From NCBI RefSeq assembly GCF_000969985.1, contig NZ_CP009526.1, positions 1,178,001 through 1,242,000 on the forward strand: a stretch of DNA of 64,000 nucleotides, read 5' to 3'. The position numbers were made by a program, and so were the translations under genes. The notes under the pieces are model-generated. The model did no database searches. It saw only the letters and a list, made by a program, of their open reading frames with translations, and was not told the origin of the DNA. Below are positions 32,791-61,072 of the stretch, in pieces. The stretch's first letter is position 1. Every line of letters begins with the position of its first letter. Source of the DNA: Methanosarcina barkeri str. Wiesmoor. GTDB taxonomy: Archaea; Halobacteriota; Methanosarcinia; Methanosarcinales; Methanosarcinaceae.

Positions 32791-32881
32791 TTTTTGATTT
32801 CTTGATATTATCCTTTTGGTTTCTTGATATTGTCCTTTTTGATTTCTTGATATTATCCTTTTTGATTTCTTGATATTGTCC
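32791..32881. repeat. 22-23-bp tandem repeat, four units
   Basis: Four units of TTTTTGATTTCTTGATATT(A/G)TCC, one of them a base shorter. Translating them gives an artificial charged peptide on the minus strand, so I treat the region as a non-coding repeat. The rest of 32284-33032 is AT-rich and otherwise empty. Confidence 0.85.
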
Positions 32882-33032
32882 TGTGAGCTTCACACACAAA
32901 CGTTACCGTTTATGCATGTCACAGTAAGATTACCTCAAATGGCAAATATAGTGCAGAGACGCAGTTAGTATAGTATAGCTTCTTGTCGCACATGCCGAAT
33001 ATAGGTTTTAAAACAGACTTTCTACAATTTAT

Positions 33033-33240: not shown

Positions 33241-34560
33241 TATGTAGTCACTGTTATATAATCTGTTTTTGTTACCGTGTTCTTGCCTTTAGCATTCTTT
33301 ACTGTTAAATTAACAGTATATGTTCCTGTCTTTGAATATTTGTGAATCGGATTCTGGTGGAATGACTTTGCTCCGTCTCCAAAGTCCCATCTCCATTTAG
33401 CAGGTATTCCTGTGCTTGTGTCAGTAAATTTAACCTTTAATGGTGCTTTTCCTGATGTAACACTGTTGGTGAAGTTTGCAGCAGGTTTTGTTATTACTTT
33501 TATGAATTGGATTCTGGTGGAATGACTTTGCTCCGTCTCCAAAGTTCCAGAACCAAGAAGTTGGAGAGCCAGTACTTGTATCAGTAAATTTAACCTTTAA
33601 TGGTGTTTTTCCCGAAGTCGACGACGCAGTAAATGCAGCTACCGGCTTTGCTGAAAAGGGACTGGAGACCTTAATATGCCCGGTTTTCACCTCAGAATCG
33701 CTTCCGTCCTCGTTGAAAACAGTGAGGTTGACATTGTAGGTACCGGCTGCAGCATAAGTGTAGATAGGGTTCTGCTCAGTGCTGTCTACAGTTCCATCAT
33801 TATCAAAGTCCCAGGCCCACGATGTCGGTGAACCGGAGGCCGTGTCATTGAACTGTACCGTGAGAGGTGCTTTACCACTTTCACATTTGCGATGAAATTC
33901 GCGACAGGTGAGGTAGAAGAGTCCTTGAAGGCATAGACTTTCTGGTCGCCTCCTATACTGAAAAGCATTCCGTCTGAAAGTGCAGGGGAAGAACCGGCAT
34001 AAGGAGAATTCCAGACGACATTGCCAGTGAAGGCATCCAGAACATAAAGATTTTCATAACCAAAATACCCCTCTTCTGCGCTTCCCACATAAACGATCCC
34101 ATCGGCAACCGCTAATGAACAGGTCCAGTCTCCTACCCCTCCTTCGTCTGTTATTTTTGAAGGTGTTGACCAGATAGGTGAGCCTGTAGTCGCATTGAAG
34201 CAGTAAGTTTGCACGTTGCTATAACCACTTGCTCCTCCGCAAACGTAGCATTTCCATAGGCCAAAGCAGGAGTCGAATCCGATCTTTCAATTGACTGTTT
34301 CCAGATTATCTGGCCTCAGATGCATTTAAGGCAAGAAGCTCTCCATTTCCGTAGAAGCTGTAAGTTGTCAGGTAAATGATGCTGTCTTTGTAAGCCGGAG
34401 AACCGCAGAAGTTATCTACGACATTATTGATGTGCCAGAGTTCTTTTCCGGTTACTGCATTCACGCAGTAAGCATGTCCCTGATATGAAGAACCATATCC
34501 CCAGCTCGTCATTTGAAAAAAATTGTAGCCCTTCTGGTAAAGAGATTTAACACCTGTCAA
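33240..34560 (-). pseudogene. Decayed PQQ-propeller / PKD surface-protein gene
   Basis: The minus strand reads as one former gene in several frames. A propeller part (from 34560; AYCVNAVTGKELWHINN, LLALNAS) is broken near 34309; a middle frame continues GQIIWKQSIERSDSTPALAYGN; a second shift near 34245 leads into VCGGASGY and QTYCFNATTGSPIWS; another near 33870 breaks the first PKD domain (KAPLTVQF should follow). The next PKD domain (GKTPLKVKFTDTSTGSPTSW) loses its second half by an apparent deletion joining HQNPIHK to FIKVITKP. The last PKD domain ends at a stop at 33240. There is no signal peptide or start, and the 5' end is missing. It is a relative of the 29080 gene (propeller part) and of the PKD paralogues (C-terminal part). 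Confidence 0.85.
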
Positions 34561-34668
34561 GATTTTTGCTGAAAGGCAAACCTGACTTTCCAGTTTTTTG
34601 GAAAAATATCAGGCATAGAGCTGTATAAAGAAAAGTAAGTGGTTTCAGTTCCTCTTTTTTGAAGATCT

Positions 34669-34780
34669 CCTATATTTTCATGGGGTTAACAGTGGTCTGG
34701 GCGGAAGAATCTGGCCACATTTTTGGTATCATGGCTGCGGCAGAATCAGGTTTCGGACCTTTTGAAGTGCCAGACCAACT
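34669..34780 (+). ncRNA. Candidate three-way-junction RNA, copy A
   Basis: A 5' hairpin (CCTAT-ATTTTC-ATGGG) is followed by P1 GGTCTGG (34694-34700) pairing with CCAGACC (34770-34776). Inside, P2 is TCTGGCCA pairing with TGGC...CAGA, and P3 is AGGT-TTCGG-ACCT (34748-34760). The junction strands are GCGGAAGAA and TTTTGAAGTG. Copy B at 35330 has the same layout, the same unpaired words (GCGGAA, TTCGGA, TTGAAGTG) and different but complementary stems. The strand is inferred from the downstream CobN-like gene; the minus strand remains possible. Confidence 0.5.
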
Positions 34781-36745
34781 GGATTTTTAAGAGATTATTG
34801 GAACATATACGCAGGAAATTTAGTTGTTTCCTGAAATTTACCCAGCAAATGTTATATTTGTAATCAATTAACGAATTTTATACACAACATAAATGCCATA
34901 CATGTCATTTTTCTAACATGATCTAAACGTAAAAACCATTACAGTTCAGGCATTTTGTATCTTACCTGAATACAAATAACGACATTCGGGTTGGAGTAAA
35001 CTTTTCTCCCTGAAAGTTCTCAAGGATTTATAATGGATATCTGATTAAACTAATTGTATATGATTAAACTAACTATTTGTTAAACATTTATAAATAAATG
35101 TATATGGCTAATTATTCTTAGCTTGTTGGCTAATAACCTGTCTTTTAAATTCTAGAAGTAAGGATGCTTTTAAAGTGAGGACATTTTTAGTTTTATTCCG
35201 TATTTTCTGTTTCATCGGCTTTCAAGAACTTCAGGCTTGAGATTGCTTTTTAATCAGTTAATACCATTATCAAAAAAACTTTAAATCATACGAAAAAGAT
35301 ATGTTTTCCTATTTCGTTATATAATTCTTCCTATGTTTTCATAGGGGTTAGGTTAGCCTGTGCGGAACCTGTGTATTCCTATAAGTGGCGTACTCAGGAA
35401 AGGAATTCGGACTCCTTGAAGTGGCAGGCTAACCGTTATCCGAGAACAATGTGGACTCAATGGAAGGATTTAGACCCCCATAGGAGGGGCCCTTAATTTA
35501 CTTCCAAGCTGTTTTTACGTTTTTTTCGAACTTTGAGGGAATATTTATGGAACTCTTTTTTTCGGTGAAGTTTATAGGTTTATGCAGTTGATACCTATTT
35601 TCAGTATCTCCTACATAAACTCTGGCTGTGCTGATTGTATTCGATCTTTTTCATCTGGGCATAACTAAAAGTTCTTAAGGAGGTATTTTGGGAGGTACAC
35701 TGCTTAACTTTGTTTCCTTAGTTAGCAGTTGGTCATAAAGAGTTAAACTGGCTTACCTCATTACTTCCATTTTTCAGCACATCGATCCCAAAGTATATCC
35801 ATAAATCTGAAATTTTGACTCTATCTATAGATCAATGAATTTCACATTAATAATGGATTTATTTTGGAATCTACAAACTTGTAATCTAAATAACTGGATA
35901 TAAATCTAACAAAATCGATAATAAGTTTGAGCTTTAAAGGTAACGTTGAAAAATTATCCACGAAATTGTCTCTATTAATATTGCTTACATAAATTTGTCA
36001 TAAGGAAAGAAAAATAACAGTAAAAAGTAATGCTTTTTGTAATCATTTTTCCATCAGTTTGAATCTTTCCTAATATCTTCATAACTATTTTTATTTTTAA
36101 ACACTATTATAATTTTACATATGTATGTCGAGCACAATACAATTTTATAATCAGTAATTACTTCTTTCCTTCACGGAATTATAACTTTCTTCAAAATTTA
36201 ACTTTTTCTTTATTATATTATCCCACAAAATTCATTTTTTTCACAGAATATGCTTTCTTTGCCTAGCTTTTTAATATATTTTTATCTTATTTGCAATTCG
36301 TCTATTAAATTTATCACAGCTCAATAAATAGCATTCGATGTTATTTTTTGGTCTATTTTCTAGCTATTATTACCTTTTTGGCTAATAATTATTATCTAAA
36401 ATCTTAGTCTTTTATACAAGTAAACTAAAATTGAGCTGAAATTACGTAATTGTTTACGATATTGAGGTGAGCATTTGAGAATTTGTGAGGTTATTGTTTT
36501 TTAAAATATCCTTTAATAACAGGTGTTAAATAGTGTTTTTCTTTGCACTGATAAGTAAAGTTTACTTTCGTTATTTGTATATAATGCAATTTCTTGTTCT
36601 TATTAATTTGATTTTCTTCATATCTATTAATAAAAAATTTGAAAGTTAAACAGTAAAGAATTTCTTTCAAGCAGCGTGCAGTCTCAAGATTAGTAATAAT
36701 ATCCTCACAACTCGGTATATTAAATTATTTTCTGGAGTAGGAATC
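34781..36745. other. Long AT-rich non-coding stretch with RNA candidate B
   Basis: Nearly 2 kb without a convincing reading frame on either strand. It contains RNA candidate B (35330-35434), a GC-rich hairpin (CCCC...GGGG near 35475-35490) just after it, and then ~1.2 kb of AT-rich sequence. A ribosome-binding GGAG and a start codon for the CobN-like gene stand at its right end. If the promoter of that gene lies before the RNA candidates, the leader would be very long. Confidence 0.5.
35330..35434 (+). ncRNA. Candidate three-way-junction RNA, copy B
   Basis: The hairpin CCTATG-TTTT-CATAGG (35330-35345) precedes P1 GGTTAGCCTG (35351-35360), perfectly paired with CAGGCTAACC (35425-35434). P2 pairs CCTGTGTA with TACTCAGG (one T-T mismatch), and P3 is AGGA...TCCT with TTCGGA in the loop. 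The junction strands are TGCGGAA and TTGAAGTGG. It is about 1.3 kb upstream of the CobN-like gene on the same strand. It does not fit the conserved core of the cobalamin riboswitch as I know it. Confidence 0.5.
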
Positions 36746-39700
36746 ATGAATGAACAGTTGAATAACGAAACGAACCTTTTGAACAAAAAAATTAAGGCTT
36801 CAATACTGGCATTTTTTATGCTTTTAACGTTGTTTTCGATTTCTCCGGCGGCTGGAAGCGGAAATCTTCAGTATGAACTCATTGCCAGTACAACCAGTGA
36901 TGCCGAAGGCAACTACCTGTTTTCCGGCGTTCCCGACGGAAATTATACGCTTATAGCTCTTTATAATGAGGACAAATGGCGACGTGCCGATGAACAAATT
37001 CAGGTTCAAAACGGAACGGACCTTATAGTGACTCTTGATACCTCCAGCAGGAATATCGATGAAAATGAGTCTCAGGCCCTTCTTGACCTGCCTGTCAGTG
37101 AGGCTGGTCTTTCTGGAAGTGCTATAATCAGTGGACTTACCCGCCAGAAACAGATGAATGCTGACCCTATACCTCTGGGTTCCACAAACGTTCTTCTGTT
37201 AAAGGAAGCTGGAACAGAAACTCAGGATAATTCCAGTGAGACTCAGAGTAATTCCAGCGAAACTCAAGATAACTCCAGCCAGGTCCAGAGTAACTCCAGC
37301 AGCAGTCAGCACCTGAACATTGCCATTGTGACCGGATACAGAAGCCATGAGCTTCCACTAAAAAATCTAGCGGAAGAGGTCAACAGTAACAACAGCCTGA
37401 ACCTTACTCTTAGCTGCTTTATGGCTGACTACGTAATGGAAAATGACGTTGACCTTAGTGCAATGGACATAATCTACATCAACATGCTCAGTCCTTCAAC
37501 AGCCCAGAAGCTCACACCGACAGTGGACAGTGCAATTGCTAACGGGTGTGTGGTTATTGATGACGATACCCTTCTGAATGAGAGCATCCCGCTTCCTGAA
37601 GACCAGATCGAAAGTTACAGGGAAAAACTGAACGACTACTGGAGTAATGGGGCTTACGACCAGAACAACTTGAAAAACCTTATATTCTGCATCGCCAGTG
37701 ACTGCTGCGGCAGATCTGACCTGCTATATGAGGAGCCGCATACGCTTCCAGAAAGAGCGATTTATCACACGAACATGACAGGTTACTTTACCGATTCTCT
37801 GGATACCTATCTTGCCTGGTATTCAAACCGGAGCGATGGAGGGCATGTCTACGATCCTGCAAAGCCTACAATTGCAATCACCATGTACCAGAGCTATTTC
37901 CCCTTCCAGATTGAGCCAATTGATGCCCTGATCTCAAAACTGGAAGCAAAAGACTACAATGTTATTGCCACATACGGATCTGATGATCTTGCCTCCGGCG
38001 ACTTTTTCAAGCAGGGAGATGAGGTTCTTGTGGATGCAATTATTTCATTTACATACTTTGGCAACAAATTTGATGCCGAAGAGCTCGGTGTGCCTGTAAT
38101 CAACGGCATTGTTGACAATTACATGAACAGGACCGATTATGAAGCCAGCAGCAGACCGCTTCCTGCGGACAAGATGATGAAGCTCGATTTGCAGGAACTC
38201 TGGGGAGCTATTGACCCAATAATAATGGCTGCAACGGAAGTAGATCCCGAAACCGAGACTGAAACTTCGGTTTCCATAGATTACCAGGTAGACTGGCTTG
38301 TTGACCGTGTGGAAAGTTGGGTGAACCTCAGTGAAATTCCGGAGTCGGACAAAAAAGTTGCTATAATCTATTATAATCATGGAGGAGGGAAGGATAACAT
38401 AGGGGCTTCTTATCTTGATGTCATTCCAAGTTTGTCAAACCTTCTTGACGCTATGTCTAAAGACGGATATGCTCTGAATGAAAATCAGACCTTAAACGAA
38501 ACTGATCTCCTGAATTTGATGCTTACCCAGGGTATAAACATAGGGACCTGGGCACCTGGAGAACTCCAGAAAATGGTTGATACCGGCAAAGTCGTTCTTC
38601 TCCCAGAAAGTACTTATGAGAAATGGTTCTCGGAACTCCCTGAAGAAAGACAGCAGGAGGTCATTGACCAATGGGGTCCTGCACCTGGAAAGATTATGGT
38701 CTGGGAAAACGAGACTGGAAAATACCTTGTTATTCCCAGAATTGAGGTAGGGAAGAATGTGATTCTGGCTCCACAGCCTTCAAGAGGCTGGCTTGATGAT
38801 AATGAGGCTCTCTATCACGACAAGGATTTGCCTCCTCACCACCAGTACATTGCTTTCTATCTCTGGCTCCAGCATTCTGAGGAAGAAGGAGGATTCGACA
38901 GTGATGCCCTTGTTCATTTCGGCAGGCATGGGACTCAGGAATGGCTGCCTGGAAAAGAGTTTGGGCTCTCTCGGTACGACTGGCCTTCCCTGATGATAGG
39001 TGATAAGCCCGTGATTTATCCTTACGTTATGGATGGGCTCGGAGAAGGCAATGAGGCAAAGCGCAGAGGAGGAGCAGTAATAGTTGACCATCTTGTACCC
39101 CCGATTCTTTCGGCAGGAAGCTATGGGAATTATTCAAATCTGAGTGAAGCTATCCAGAACTATGAACAGGCTGAGGCTGATGCCTCTCTTAAAGCGGCTC
39201 ACAGGTCTGAAGTCTTAAACCTGACTCAGTCTCTTTCCCTGGATAAAGAACTTAACATGACAGAGGCAGAAAATAACGAGACTTACTTTAATACCACTTT
39301 CCTTGAAGGGCTTGAAGATCTTCTGGACGAGTATAAGAGCCAGTCTATGCCTTACGGGCTTCATATCCTGGGTACAAGCCCTAAAGGAGAGCAGCTTGTT
39401 GGCATGGTAAATTCTATGCTTGGAACTGACTTTGCAGACTCGGTTAATGAATTCAATAAAACCGAAGGGGCTCAGCTTTATTTGCTTGACCTTGTCCTTA
39501 ACCAGGGAGTCAATTCCACAAACGCCCAGAAGCAGGTGCTCGGAAAAAGCAATGAAACCGTCAGTACCCTCCTATCCAATGCGGAAGAATATGCTGCAAA
39601 CCTGGCTCTTGGAGAAGAGGAAATCGATCAGGTTCTCAATGCCCTGGACGGCAAGTTTATCCCTGGAAATCTGGGAGGAGACCCTGTTAGAAATCCGGAA

Positions 39701-41362
39701 ACTCTGCCGTCTGGAAGAAACTTCTATGCGTTTGACCAGCGGATAGTGCCAACAGAAGCTGCCTGGACTCTCGGTCAGGAAATGGCTGACCAGATGCTTG
39801 AAGCTTATGTTACCGAGCACGGGACTTATCCGAAAAAGGTGGCTTACGTACTCTGGGCAGGAGAAACAACAAGGCACGAAGGGGTTATGGAAGCAGAGAT
39901 CCTCTACCTGCTAGGGGTTAAGCCTGTATGGAACAGCGGCAGAGTAGTTGATGTGGAAGCTATTCCAATGGAGACGCTGGGCAGGCCAAGAATTGATGTT
40001 GTAATGCAGATCTCTGGACTCTACAGGGACATGTACCCTGACAAGGTTCGCCTGCTGGACAAGGCCGTAAAACTGGCTTATGCCCAGGAAGACTCTCCCA
40101 ATTATGTCCGGGAAAATGCAGATGCTCTGAAATCTTCTTTGACGAGTGAAGGTTCCCTTAATGATAGTGAGGCTCTGGACCTTTCCCTGCTCAGGATTTT
40201 CGGGTCTTCGGACGGCGCCTACGGCACAGGCCTTCCAAATGCGATCTCTTCAAGTGATACTTGGGAAAGCAACGACGCTCTTGCAGAGCTTTACATCAAC
40301 AAGATGTGCAATGCCTACGGAGAAGATGTGTGGGGCGAAGATCTGAAGGATCTTTTTAAAGAAAACCTTGAAGGGGTTGAAGCTACAGTGCACAGCCGGA
40401 GCACAAACCTCTACGGGACTCTGGATAATGACGATTTCTTCCAGTACCTTGGAGGGCTGAATCTTGCTATCAGTTCCGTTTCGGGAGGAGAGTATCCTGA
40501 TTCATATATCACGAACATGCTGACAAATGGGGACGAGAAAACCGAAACCCTAGAAAAGTTTCTTACGAGGGAAACCTACTCCAGATATTTCAATTCGAAG
40601 TGGATTGAAGGTATGCAGGGAAGCGGTTATGCAGGAGCCAGGGAAATGTCGGATTTCGTTGAGAACCTCTGGGGCTGGGAAGCTACGAACCCGGATTTGA
40701 TCAGTGATGACATGTGGAACCAGGTGTATAAGACGTACGTGGCGGACCAGGAACTTAGCAACTGGATTAAGAAGAATAATCCTTATGCTTACCAGTCCAT
40801 GACAGCCCGGATGCTGGAGACCGCACGCAAAGGCAACTGGGACGCCTCTGATGAGGTACTCGAAAGCCTTGCTACGGAATATGAAGACTCCGTGGTCGAA
40901 GATGGGGTTACCTGCTGCCACCATACATGCGGAAACCCCCTTCTCAATAGCTACGTATCAGGCATGGTTTCGGTTCCAGGTTTTAGCGAAGCAATAGAAA
41001 ATGCTACGCAGGAATCTCTTGAACAAGAAGAGACTGAAGAACAAAGTAGCAGTGGTGAAAAACACAGCAGTGGTGGTAATAAAGGAAGTTCGACACCTGT
41101 AATTCGGAGTACGGAGAGTAGCAATCAGACTGTTGTAGAGAGCGATACGGGATATGGGGTCGATTCCCCCGAACCTGCACCTGAGGTCTCGAAATCATCT
41201 GCTGACTCGGATTATGTTGAAGGCTATGAGATGCAGAAAGATTCCACCGAAGAACCAGATAATAGCGGTTTCTCATTTTCGGGTTCCGATATTTTTGGAA
41301 TTCTCTTCGTGATAGCAGCCATTGGTGGAATCTATTTCGGGTTCTATAAAAAGAAAATGTAA
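36746..41362 (+). CDS. Extracellular membrane-anchored CobN-like chelatase-family protein
   Basis: 1538 aa. An N-terminal signal segment (about residues 17-36) is followed by a short carboxypeptidase-regulatory-like beta domain (DAEGNYLFSGVPDGNYTLIALY), a Gln/Asn/Ser repeat stretch (ETQDNSSETQSNSS; about 155-190), and the CobN / magnesium-chelatase H-subunit domain (about 190-1400) with the family motif HFGRHGTQEWLPGK (H724) and GEGNEAKRRGGAVIVDHLVPP. After a Ser/Glu-rich stalk, one membrane helix (about 1510-1532) precedes a KKKM end. CobN and ChlH normally insert Co or Mg into tetrapyrroles in the cytosol with ATPase partners; here the domain should lie outside the cell, no ChlI/ChlD partner is encoded, and the usual T of HFGTHGT is R. 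A role in binding or handling extracellular tetrapyrroles or metal is an inference. GGAG precedes the start. Confidence 0.85.
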   Translation: MNEQLNNETNLLNKKIKASILAFFMLLTLFSISPAAGSGNLQYELIASTTSDAEGNYLFSGVPDGNYTLIALYNEDKWRRADEQIQVQNGTDLIVTLDTSSRNIDENESQALLDLPVSEAGLSGSAIISGLTRQKQMNADPIPLGSTNVLLLKEAGTETQDNSSETQSNSSETQDNSSQVQSNSSSSQHLNIAIVTGYRSHELPLKNLAEEVNSNNSLNLTLSCFMADYVMENDVDLSAMDIIYINMLSPSTAQKLTPTVDSAIANGCVVIDDDTLLNESIPLPEDQIESYREKLNDYWSNGAYDQNNLKNLIFCIASDCCGRSDLLYEEPHTLPERAIYHTNMTGYFTDSLDTYLAWYSNRSDGGHVYDPAKPTIAITMYQSYFPFQIEPIDALISKLEAKDYNVIATYGSDDLASGDFFKQGDEVLVDAIISFTYFGNKFDAEELGVPVINGIVDNYMNRTDYEASSRPLPADKMMKLDLQELWGAIDPIIMAATEVDPETETETSVSIDYQVDWLVDRVESWVNLSEIPESDKKVAIIYYNHGGGKDNIGASYLDVIPSLSNLLDAMSKDGYALNENQTLNETDLLNLMLTQGINIGTWAPGELQKMVDTGKVVLLPESTYEKWFSELPEERQQEVIDQWGPAPGKIMVWENETGKYLVIPRIEVGKNVILAPQPSRGWLDDNEALYHDKDLPPHHQYIAFYLWLQHSEEEGGFDSDALVHFGRHGTQEWLPGKEFGLSRYDWPSLMIGDKPVIYPYVMDGLGEGNEAKRRGGAVIVDHLVPPILSAGSYGNYSNLSEAIQNYEQAEADASLKAAHRSEVLNLTQSLSLDKELNMTEAENNETYFNTTFLEGLEDLLDEYKSQSMPYGLHILGTSPKGEQLVGMVNSMLGTDFADSVNEFNKTEGAQLYLLDLVLNQGVNSTNAQKQVLGKSNETVSTLLSNAEEYAANLALGEEEIDQVLNALDGKFIPGNLGGDPVRNPETLPSGRNFYAFDQRIVPTEAAWTLGQEMADQMLEAYVTEHGTYPKKVAYVLWAGETTRHEGVMEAEILYLLGVKPVWNSGRVVDVEAIPMETLGRPRIDVVMQISGLYRDMYPDKVRLLDKAVKLAYAQEDSPNYVRENADALKSSLTSEGSLNDSEALDLSLLRIFGSSDGAYGTGLPNAISSSDTWESNDALAELYINKMCNAYGEDVWGEDLKDLFKENLEGVEATVHSRSTNLYGTLDNDDFFQYLGGLNLAISSVSGGEYPDSYITNMLTNGDEKTETLEKFLTRETYSRYFNSKWIEGMQGSGYAGAREMSDFVENLWGWEATNPDLISDDMWNQVYKTYVADQELSNWIKKNNPYAYQSMTARMLETARKGNWDASDEVLESLATEYEDSVVEDGVTCCHHTCGNPLLNSYVSGMVSVPGFSEAIENATQESLEQEETEEQSSSGEKHSSGGNKGSSTPVIRSTESSNQTVVESDTGYGVDSPEPAPEVSKSSADSDYVEGYEMQKDSTEEPDNSGFSFSGSDIFGILFVIAAIGGIYFGFYKKKM

Positions 41363-60485: not shown

Positions 60486-60589
60486 TAATAAAAGTAGCGT
60501 ACAGTTCGAAATCCTACTAAATGTTAATAGCTGTACTTCGCTAGACAAAACCTTTGAGCAAACTATTTATTTAATACAAGGAAAAAGGT

Positions 60590-60653
60590 ATCCTATAGGT
60601 GATGAAGTCCGCCAAGATTTACAGTCTAAACCGCTTATGCTGATGACTTCTAC
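60590..60653 (+). promoter_or_regulatory. Fluoride riboswitch (crcB motif)
   Basis: AGGTGATGAAGTCCGCC at 60597-60613, AACCGC at about 60629-60634 and GCTGATGACTTCTAC at 60639-60653 reproduce the conserved segments of the crcB-motif fluoride aptamer (G-GAUG-x-GU-x-C-x-CC, AACCGC, GCUGAUG-x-C-x-CCUAC) in the right order and spacing, directly before a crcB gene. The short distance from the aptamer to the start (20 bases) suggests control of translation initiation or early termination. Confidence 0.9.
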
Positions 60654-60673
60654 ATTAATTATTGAGGTTTAAT

Positions 60674-61072
60674 GTGTATACGATTTTGTTGGTAGGTATA
60701 GGCGGCTTCATAGGTGCTACCTTAAGATACGTATTCGGTGGATGGATTCAAAACAGTTTCGTTAATTTTCCAGTAGGTACATTAACCATAAATACAATCG
60801 GAAGTTTCTTTTTAGGTTTAATAATGTACTTTTCTGAATACCAGGGCTTGTTTAGTGATCAAACCAGAATATTTCTGACAATAGGTATTTTGGGAGCTTT
60901 CACAACGTTGTCAACGTTTGGTTATGAATCATTCCGATTGCTTGATGACTCAAAATTAATGCTGATGTCGATAAATGTAGTATCAACAGTATTATTTTCC
61001 ATGATGGCTGTATATTTAGGTAAGACTGTAGCTCTAGGTGTTAGCTCTTACTTATTAGGGGGAATGAAATGA
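60674..61072 (+). CDS. crcB: Fluoride exporter CrcB/Fluc
   Basis: The GTG at 60674 has GAGG 6 bases upstream and gives MYTILLVGIGGFIGATLRYVFGG (seen in parts), the standard N terminus; the TTG at 60662 would overlap the ribosome-binding site. 132 aa with four membrane helices. Conserved family elements: GGFIGATLRY, the GT-L-x-x-N-T-x-G-S-F-F-L-G sequence (GTLTINTIGSFFLG) and GILGAFTTLSTFGYE with the F-x-T-F-S/S-T-F-G channel region. Fluc proteins are dual-topology dimers that let fluoride leave the cytoplasm. It is under a fluoride riboswitch and overlaps the DUF190 gene by 4 bases (ATGA). Confidence 0.95.
   Translation: MYTILLVGIGGFIGATLRYVFGGWIQNSFVNFPVGTLTINTIGSFFLGLIMYFSEYQGLFSDQTRIFLTIGILGAFTTLSTFGYESFRLLDDSKLMLMSINVVSTVLFSMMAVYLGKTVALGVSSYLLGGMK

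Follow-up and report, generated by a model that had tools for sequence, protein, structure and literature searches.

Two stretches of DNA that read as copies of one folded RNA lie upstream of a CobN-like gene in Methanosarcina barkeri str. Wiesmoor, and they raise the question whether they control that gene, as an earlier note on this DNA had proposed, or serve other targets. They were analyzed within a window of 64,000 nucleotides, to which positions given here refer unless another locus is named. The coordinates, stems and words given in the earlier note for its copies A and B proved to be correct. Including its 5' hairpin (P0), copy A extends from 34663 to 34786 (+), with stem P1 formed by 34694-34700 and 34770-34776, and copy B extends from 35324 to 35440 (+), with P1 formed by 35351-35360 and 35425-35434. 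P0 of copy A (TCTCCTATATTTTCATGGGG, 34666-34685, +) is complementary to a Shine-Dalgarno (SD) sequence and is conserved in 37 A copies; copy B likewise consists of an anti-SD hairpin P0 and a three-way junction, and it stands alone. The words GCGGAA, TTCGGA and TTGAAGTG are each present in both copies. They had been described as unpaired, which is probably too simple a view of GCGGAA and TTGAAG(T); judged by their letters, these two can probably stack on each other through a C-G pair, three sheared G.A-type pairs and an A-U pair.

A pattern composed of the words occurred 6 times in the genome of origin. When 31 Methanosarcina genomes were searched, it occurred 18 times, in six of them, and the pattern read backwards, used as a control, gave no occurrence in either search. 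When 18 copies were aligned, the three-way junction with covarying stems folded as had been described, with 87% of the cells paired versus 32-44% when the 3' partners were slid by 1-3 columns. Changes on both sides of a pair affected 24 cells, compared to 9.1 ± 2.4 in shuffles, and were seen in P1, P2 and P3. Copy B also folds well by itself (z = -3.7 in the sense in which the words read, hereafter the A/B sense, which is the plus strand of the window; none of 200 shuffles was equally good), and copy A alone shows no folding beyond chance (z = -0.5 against shuffles).

A covariance model (R1) scores A at 101 bits and B at 95.7 bits, values to which both copies contributed by having helped to build the model. 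The search of Methanosarcina that the earlier note had suggested found further homologues with covarying stems, and the 66 distinct copies detected with R1 reside in 6 of the 31 genomes, the same six in which the word pattern occurs. They comprise 37 copies of type A, 8 of type B (one or two per genome, the window included) and 21 of a type C, which rise to 27 with a dedicated leader model (R2). In G001, one of the six, copies are arrayed between surface-protein genes over about 110 kb (5.206-5.316 Mb). Beyond Methanosarcina, the search with R1 extended to 26 further genera of the order (186 genomes in all) and found no copy, using stricter filters that may lose weak matches. For the question of genus restriction we prefer these order-wide model searches over a pattern scan of genome contigs, which covers only the matches listed; among the matches listed from viral and genome contigs, those outside Methanosarcina scored below 18 bits with R1 and the viral ones were at chance level. 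A viral origin or an occurrence outside the genus was therefore rejected, as only Methanosarcina loci stood out when the listed matches were re-scored. The copies share no transposase-like neighbour and track the surface-gene arrays, which speaks against an insertion-sequence terminal structure or a mobile RNA. Membership in a known Rfam family was also rejected: over 34550-36760 no Rfam 15 match exceeded the gathering threshold and the best sub-threshold hits were implausible, and a search of open-licence papers did not find a description of these RNAs. A and B are members of an undescribed family of folded RNAs, new to Rfam 15 and found only in some Methanosarcina.

The weak R1 matches point to a set of genes. 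Many type A copies have such a match at a distance of about 0.4-0.6 kb, where it adjoins the start codon of a divergent gene. These matches constitute type C, the last ~150 nt of the leader of that gene. On the gene strand, type C reads CTTCAAAGGTCCGAAAA ... TTTCCGCGCAGG ... CCCTATGAAAAATAGGAGAAAYGAAAATATG, and a three-way junction is followed by a hairpin containing the SD sequence (CCCUAUG-AAAA-AUAGGAG, SD ~10-13 nt before the start codon) and then by the start codon itself. All 24 distinct leaders that could be traced end in AGGAG or GAGG with an ATG within ~13 nt, and every one of them thus has a structured element next to SD sequence and start codon, as in a riboswitch-type leader. The genes behind C encode large surface proteins of the PQQ/PKD or LRR/PKD kind. 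Their N-termini are of at least two unrelated forms, so that conservation of the leader goes further than that of the coding sequence; in MQKKRFF genes, which have a changed N-terminus, the SD sequence is kept and P0 decays. The leaders of surface-protein genes number about two dozen, 12 of them in one of the six genomes. The arrangement of type C does resemble that of a leader sequestering the SD sequence, but on the strand opposite the words and in front of genes other than the CobN-like gene. Some C leaders, for example at L072:4059-4219 (+), have the loop of the SD hairpin replaced by a longer insertion (CCCACTAAAAGTCCCAGAAAAATAGGAG), with SD sequence and start codon unmoved. The ~300 nt between A and C are conserved as well (L066, L069, L072); they include a hairpin, CAGCATTT...AAATGCTG, as well as the words CGGATTTT / AAAATCCG, for which long-range pairing is conceivable, and perhaps form another leader domain.

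R2 was built without any A or B copy and provides an independent test of the relationship. It matches the reverse complements of A and B of the window at 38.9 and 33.3 bits (E values of 1e-6 and 2e-5), and across the same six genomes it detects reverse complements of A and B copies with scores of 25-42 bits. It follows that the three types are homologous and that C is used in the sense opposite to that in which A and B had been read. Correspondingly, the B loops are each complementary to a C loop: UUCGGA to UCCGAA, GCGGAA to UUCCGC and UUGAAG to CUUCAA. Read on the gene strand, neither A nor B has a start codon behind its SD word. If A and B are transcribed in the A/B sense, they are antisense to the C leaders over their full length, including the SD sequence.

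The best-supported, though unproven, reading is that B, and perhaps A, are antisense sRNAs that mask ribosome sites of surface-protein mRNAs. More fully, and with a probability of roughly 0.45, we propose a family with mirror-image roles, in which C is an SD-containing leader and B would be a trans-acting antisense sRNA that masks the ribosome site, with A falling either way. B would be an independent small RNA, made from a promoter of its own as the reverse complement of C and carrying the anti-SD word in its 5' hairpin; it would bind C leaders in trans, pairing being begun from the loops, and once bound it would mask the ribosome site of the surface-protein mRNA. A may be a second antisense RNA, divergent from each surface gene, or a second gene-strand element of the same leader. 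We infer transcription of the antisense RNAs, their pairing in the cell and translational repression. Calculated mean duplex energies with C leaders were -96.6 kcal/mol for B (shuffled B, -51.3; B with other leaders, -44.5) and -84.9 kcal/mol for A (shuffled A, -52.8; A with other leaders, -44.6). The window copies A and B, together with leaders in the same genome, reached -111.6 and -102.0 kcal/mol, respectively, which corresponds to potential end-to-end pairing. Complementarity of A and B to the SD region exceeds chance, but it is automatic from the antisense homology and no proof of use. Against the antisense reading, genomes G003 and G004 have A and B and no recognisable C, and the A loops show no visible co-variation with their local C partners.

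Which strand is transcribed was judged from substitutions and from promoter elements. Type B has 20 G.U versus 1 A.C cells in the A/B sense, or 6 versus 1 when counted as events on a tree. An archaeal BRE/TATA-like element precedes P0 of the B copies at nearly the same distance throughout; in the window it is CGAAAAAGATATGTTT at 35291-35306 (+). With a promoter matrix trained on the tRNA genes of the genome, itself noisy, 3 of 8 B elements lie individually above the 95% background level and the one of the window lies below; since the individual scores are weak, the case for a B promoter rests on position and conservation. Downstream of the window copy, a hairpin followed by the runs GTTTTTACGTTTTTTT (35473-35526, +) is a candidate 3' end of a B transcript; its T-runs are conserved in the window, G003, G004 and G028, and a single T-run follows the B copy of G024. 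The sequences favour the A/B sense as the transcribed one for B. For A in this sense, the same matrix gave no promoter support, as 5% of elements above the 95% background is what chance predicts, and a clear TATA box before type A, considered as a candidate, was dropped after this scoring. The substitutions in type A conflict among themselves: P0 has 69 G.U versus 3 A.C cells in the A/B sense, and the other helices lean slightly the opposite way. Counting by cell overstates the evidence because the copies are related, and the tree-based count brings A and C to no strand preference (33 G.U versus 42 A.C events in A, 16 versus 19 in C). For C, the position in front of start codons decides for the gene strand despite the neutral substitutions. 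A strand preference is expected of an RNA made from one strand, and its absence in A and C counts against the antisense reading; transcription of both strands, relaxed constraint or action of the elements as DNA could each account for this neutrality. The folding z-score was discarded as a strand indicator, as it is misleading: B has the better z on the strand that its own substitutions disfavour.

The strongest competitor, which we nevertheless regard as rather unlikely, would make A and C cis elements of one long gene-strand leader, a tandem riboswitch-like or protein-binding SD switch, and B a stray, derived copy. In its favour, C reaches up to the start codons and holds the SD sequence in its terminal hairpin, A is found on this strand ~0.4 kb before C, the consensus-fold index is slightly higher on the gene strand for both types, and outside P0 the A.C cells of A outnumber the G.U cells. 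However, the SD word of A leads to no start codon, the A hairpin has A.C mismatches on the gene strand in most copies where it has G.U pairs in the A/B sense, B shows the opposite strand signal and a putative promoter of its own, and six species of one genus would be an unusually narrow distribution for a metabolite aptamer. An explanation of lower probability is that the elements act as DNA, as hairpins promoting recombination or duplication in surface-gene arrays, or are partly decayed hitchhiking duplicates. The missing G.U/A.C strand bias of A and C is what DNA-level action or relaxed constraint predicts, and the copies multiply along with the gene arrays, but compensatory changes at constant loops, the G.U bias of B and the exact coupling of C to SD sequence and start codon argue against it. 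It is more improbable still that every copy is a stand-alone structured RNA in the A/B sense that works through a protein, and that C overlaps start codons only incidentally; the conservation of P0 and junction in all types and a U-rich stretch after P1 of C in that sense would fit, but all traced C copies are equidistant from an ATG, and the MQKKRFF genes retain the SD sequence while P0 decays.

The neighbourhood link to CobN-like genes is real. At seven loci in the six genomes, a member of the RNA family is followed after 1.1-1.9 kb by a CobN-like gene of the same orientation; this gene is of the window type in the window, G003, G004 and G028, and of a second subtype (~44% identical) in G001, in G000 at 3.84 Mb and in G024. 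CobN-like genes are often neighbours of the family, and so are other surface genes. In the window, the gene at 36746-41362 (+) encodes a CobN-like protein (PF02514, 1131 bits), and the T-tract behind B (35473-35526) and a TATA-like block (TTTTATACAA, 36410-36419, +) lie between B and this gene; the block, separate from B, is identical in four genomes, kept in G030 and G026, and not among the top matches of the tRNA-trained matrix. Window-type CobN orthologues of 86-96% identity occur in many genomes without the RNA family, among them G030 and G026 (92-96% identical). There, the upstream match to the window begins at 36,321 (G030, 81%) and 36,345 (G026, 78%), TATA-like block included, sequence further upstream, where the window has B, is unmatched, and no RNA copy was found with all filters off. 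The CobN unit, conserved from ~36,320 on, is therefore complete without B, which lies 0.9 kb outside of it. G001 and G024 have their closest CobN orthologue at a locus distant from all copies of the family. Duplex energies of the window A and B with the CobN leader amounted to -37 and -41 kcal/mol, which is background level.

The earlier note had inferred a riboswitch-like or regulatory RNA acting on the 36746 gene. A riboswitch for corrinoids, tetrapyrroles or metals that acts in cis on this gene, which had the recurrent downstream CobN-like gene in its favour, was accordingly rejected as very improbable on the grounds of the T-tract, the orthologues and upstream unit that persist where the RNA is missing, and the background pairing. 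The argument against cis action rests on the orthologues without the RNA; an indirect effect of A or B in trans on CobN is conceivable, with leader pairing at background only. It is more likely that the copies near the CobN-like gene act as antisense on surface proteins than as a switch for CobN, which is thus not a likely target. The CobN-like proteins at 36746-41362 (+), L073:7979-14452 (-) and L078:5444-11761 (-) have signal-peptide-like N-termini, and that of the window also shows a hydrophobic anchor at its C-terminus and matches a carboxypeptidase-regulatory-like domain weakly. These CobN homologues are apparently exported, form two subtypes and have multiplied in the genus, with 14 matches in G001.

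Beside copy A, a decayed and frameshifted PQQ/PKD surface-protein pseudogene was detected at 33243-34518 (-) by tblastn in three frames. As this fragment has lost its N-terminus and its C leader, A in the window may be a relic or an orphan regulator; a search of the window with R2 found no type C leader. In many genomes, type A copies have conserved inverted repeats on either side, which in the window lie at 34582-34616 and 34814-34836. They read CCTGACTTTCC...GGAAA..TCAGG before P0 and GGAAAT...ATTTCC after P1 and are possibly operators or RNA hairpins. Beyond type A, tandem TGATTAAACTAATTGTA-like repeats occupy 35040-35085; such repeats recur, as TGATTGAACTAATTGTA, at type A loci in other genomes. 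Elsewhere in the window, a fluoride riboswitch (Rfam RF01734, 46.6 bits; 60589-60659, +) directly precedes a CrcB/Fluc-like frame (~60659-61069), behind which follow a second small frame and a pyrophosphatase-like frame (names assigned by eye), and a group II intron fragment (RF02012 D1-D4-7, 46.3 bits; 32818-32951, -) lies just upstream of a PQQ/CARDB surface-protein gene.

The proposed antisense regulation resembles a system from the same genus. The gene of sRNA162 in Methanosarcina mazei is divergent and lies opposite a long 5' UTR; the RNA pairs as an antisense both in cis and in trans and masks a ribosome-binding site (PMC3510493). Unlike the present family, it is not described as a repeated family, it pairs in trans via a single-stranded linker, and mirror-image homologues in its target leaders are not described. 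As sRNA162 works in such a manner, the antisense proposal needs no new chemistry. The plasmid systems CopA/CopT and RNAI/RNAII are antisense pairs with mirrored structures in which pairing can start loop to loop. As in these systems, both proposed partners fold into complementary structures, but here they would be diverged paralogues at separate loci, with one B RNA for many leaders. Type C shares with SD-sequestering riboswitches a multi-helix junction followed by an SD-holding hairpin; it differs from them in that the family has no Rfam match, is confined to one genus and is attached to no metabolic gene, and in that reverse-complement copies exist, type B with a putative promoter of its own.

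Taken further, and more tentatively than the roles proposed for the single types, antisense sRNAs and the leaders they control might form a genus-specific network of reverse-complement paralogues of one ancestral element that expanded with the surface-protein arrays. One or two trans-acting B RNAs would then control many leaders, and A RNAs each their divergent gene, and the display of surface proteins would be coordinated or selective. To our knowledge, few archaeal sRNAs have known targets, and here about two dozen surface-protein leaders can be named as candidate targets by sequence, which bears on the control of surface proteins in Methanosarcina. The new point is that regulator and target would be reverse-complement paralogues that multiplied with a giant surface-protein family; if this is true, they would exemplify how a structured element, once duplicated, can give rise to a regulator from one strand and its target from the other.
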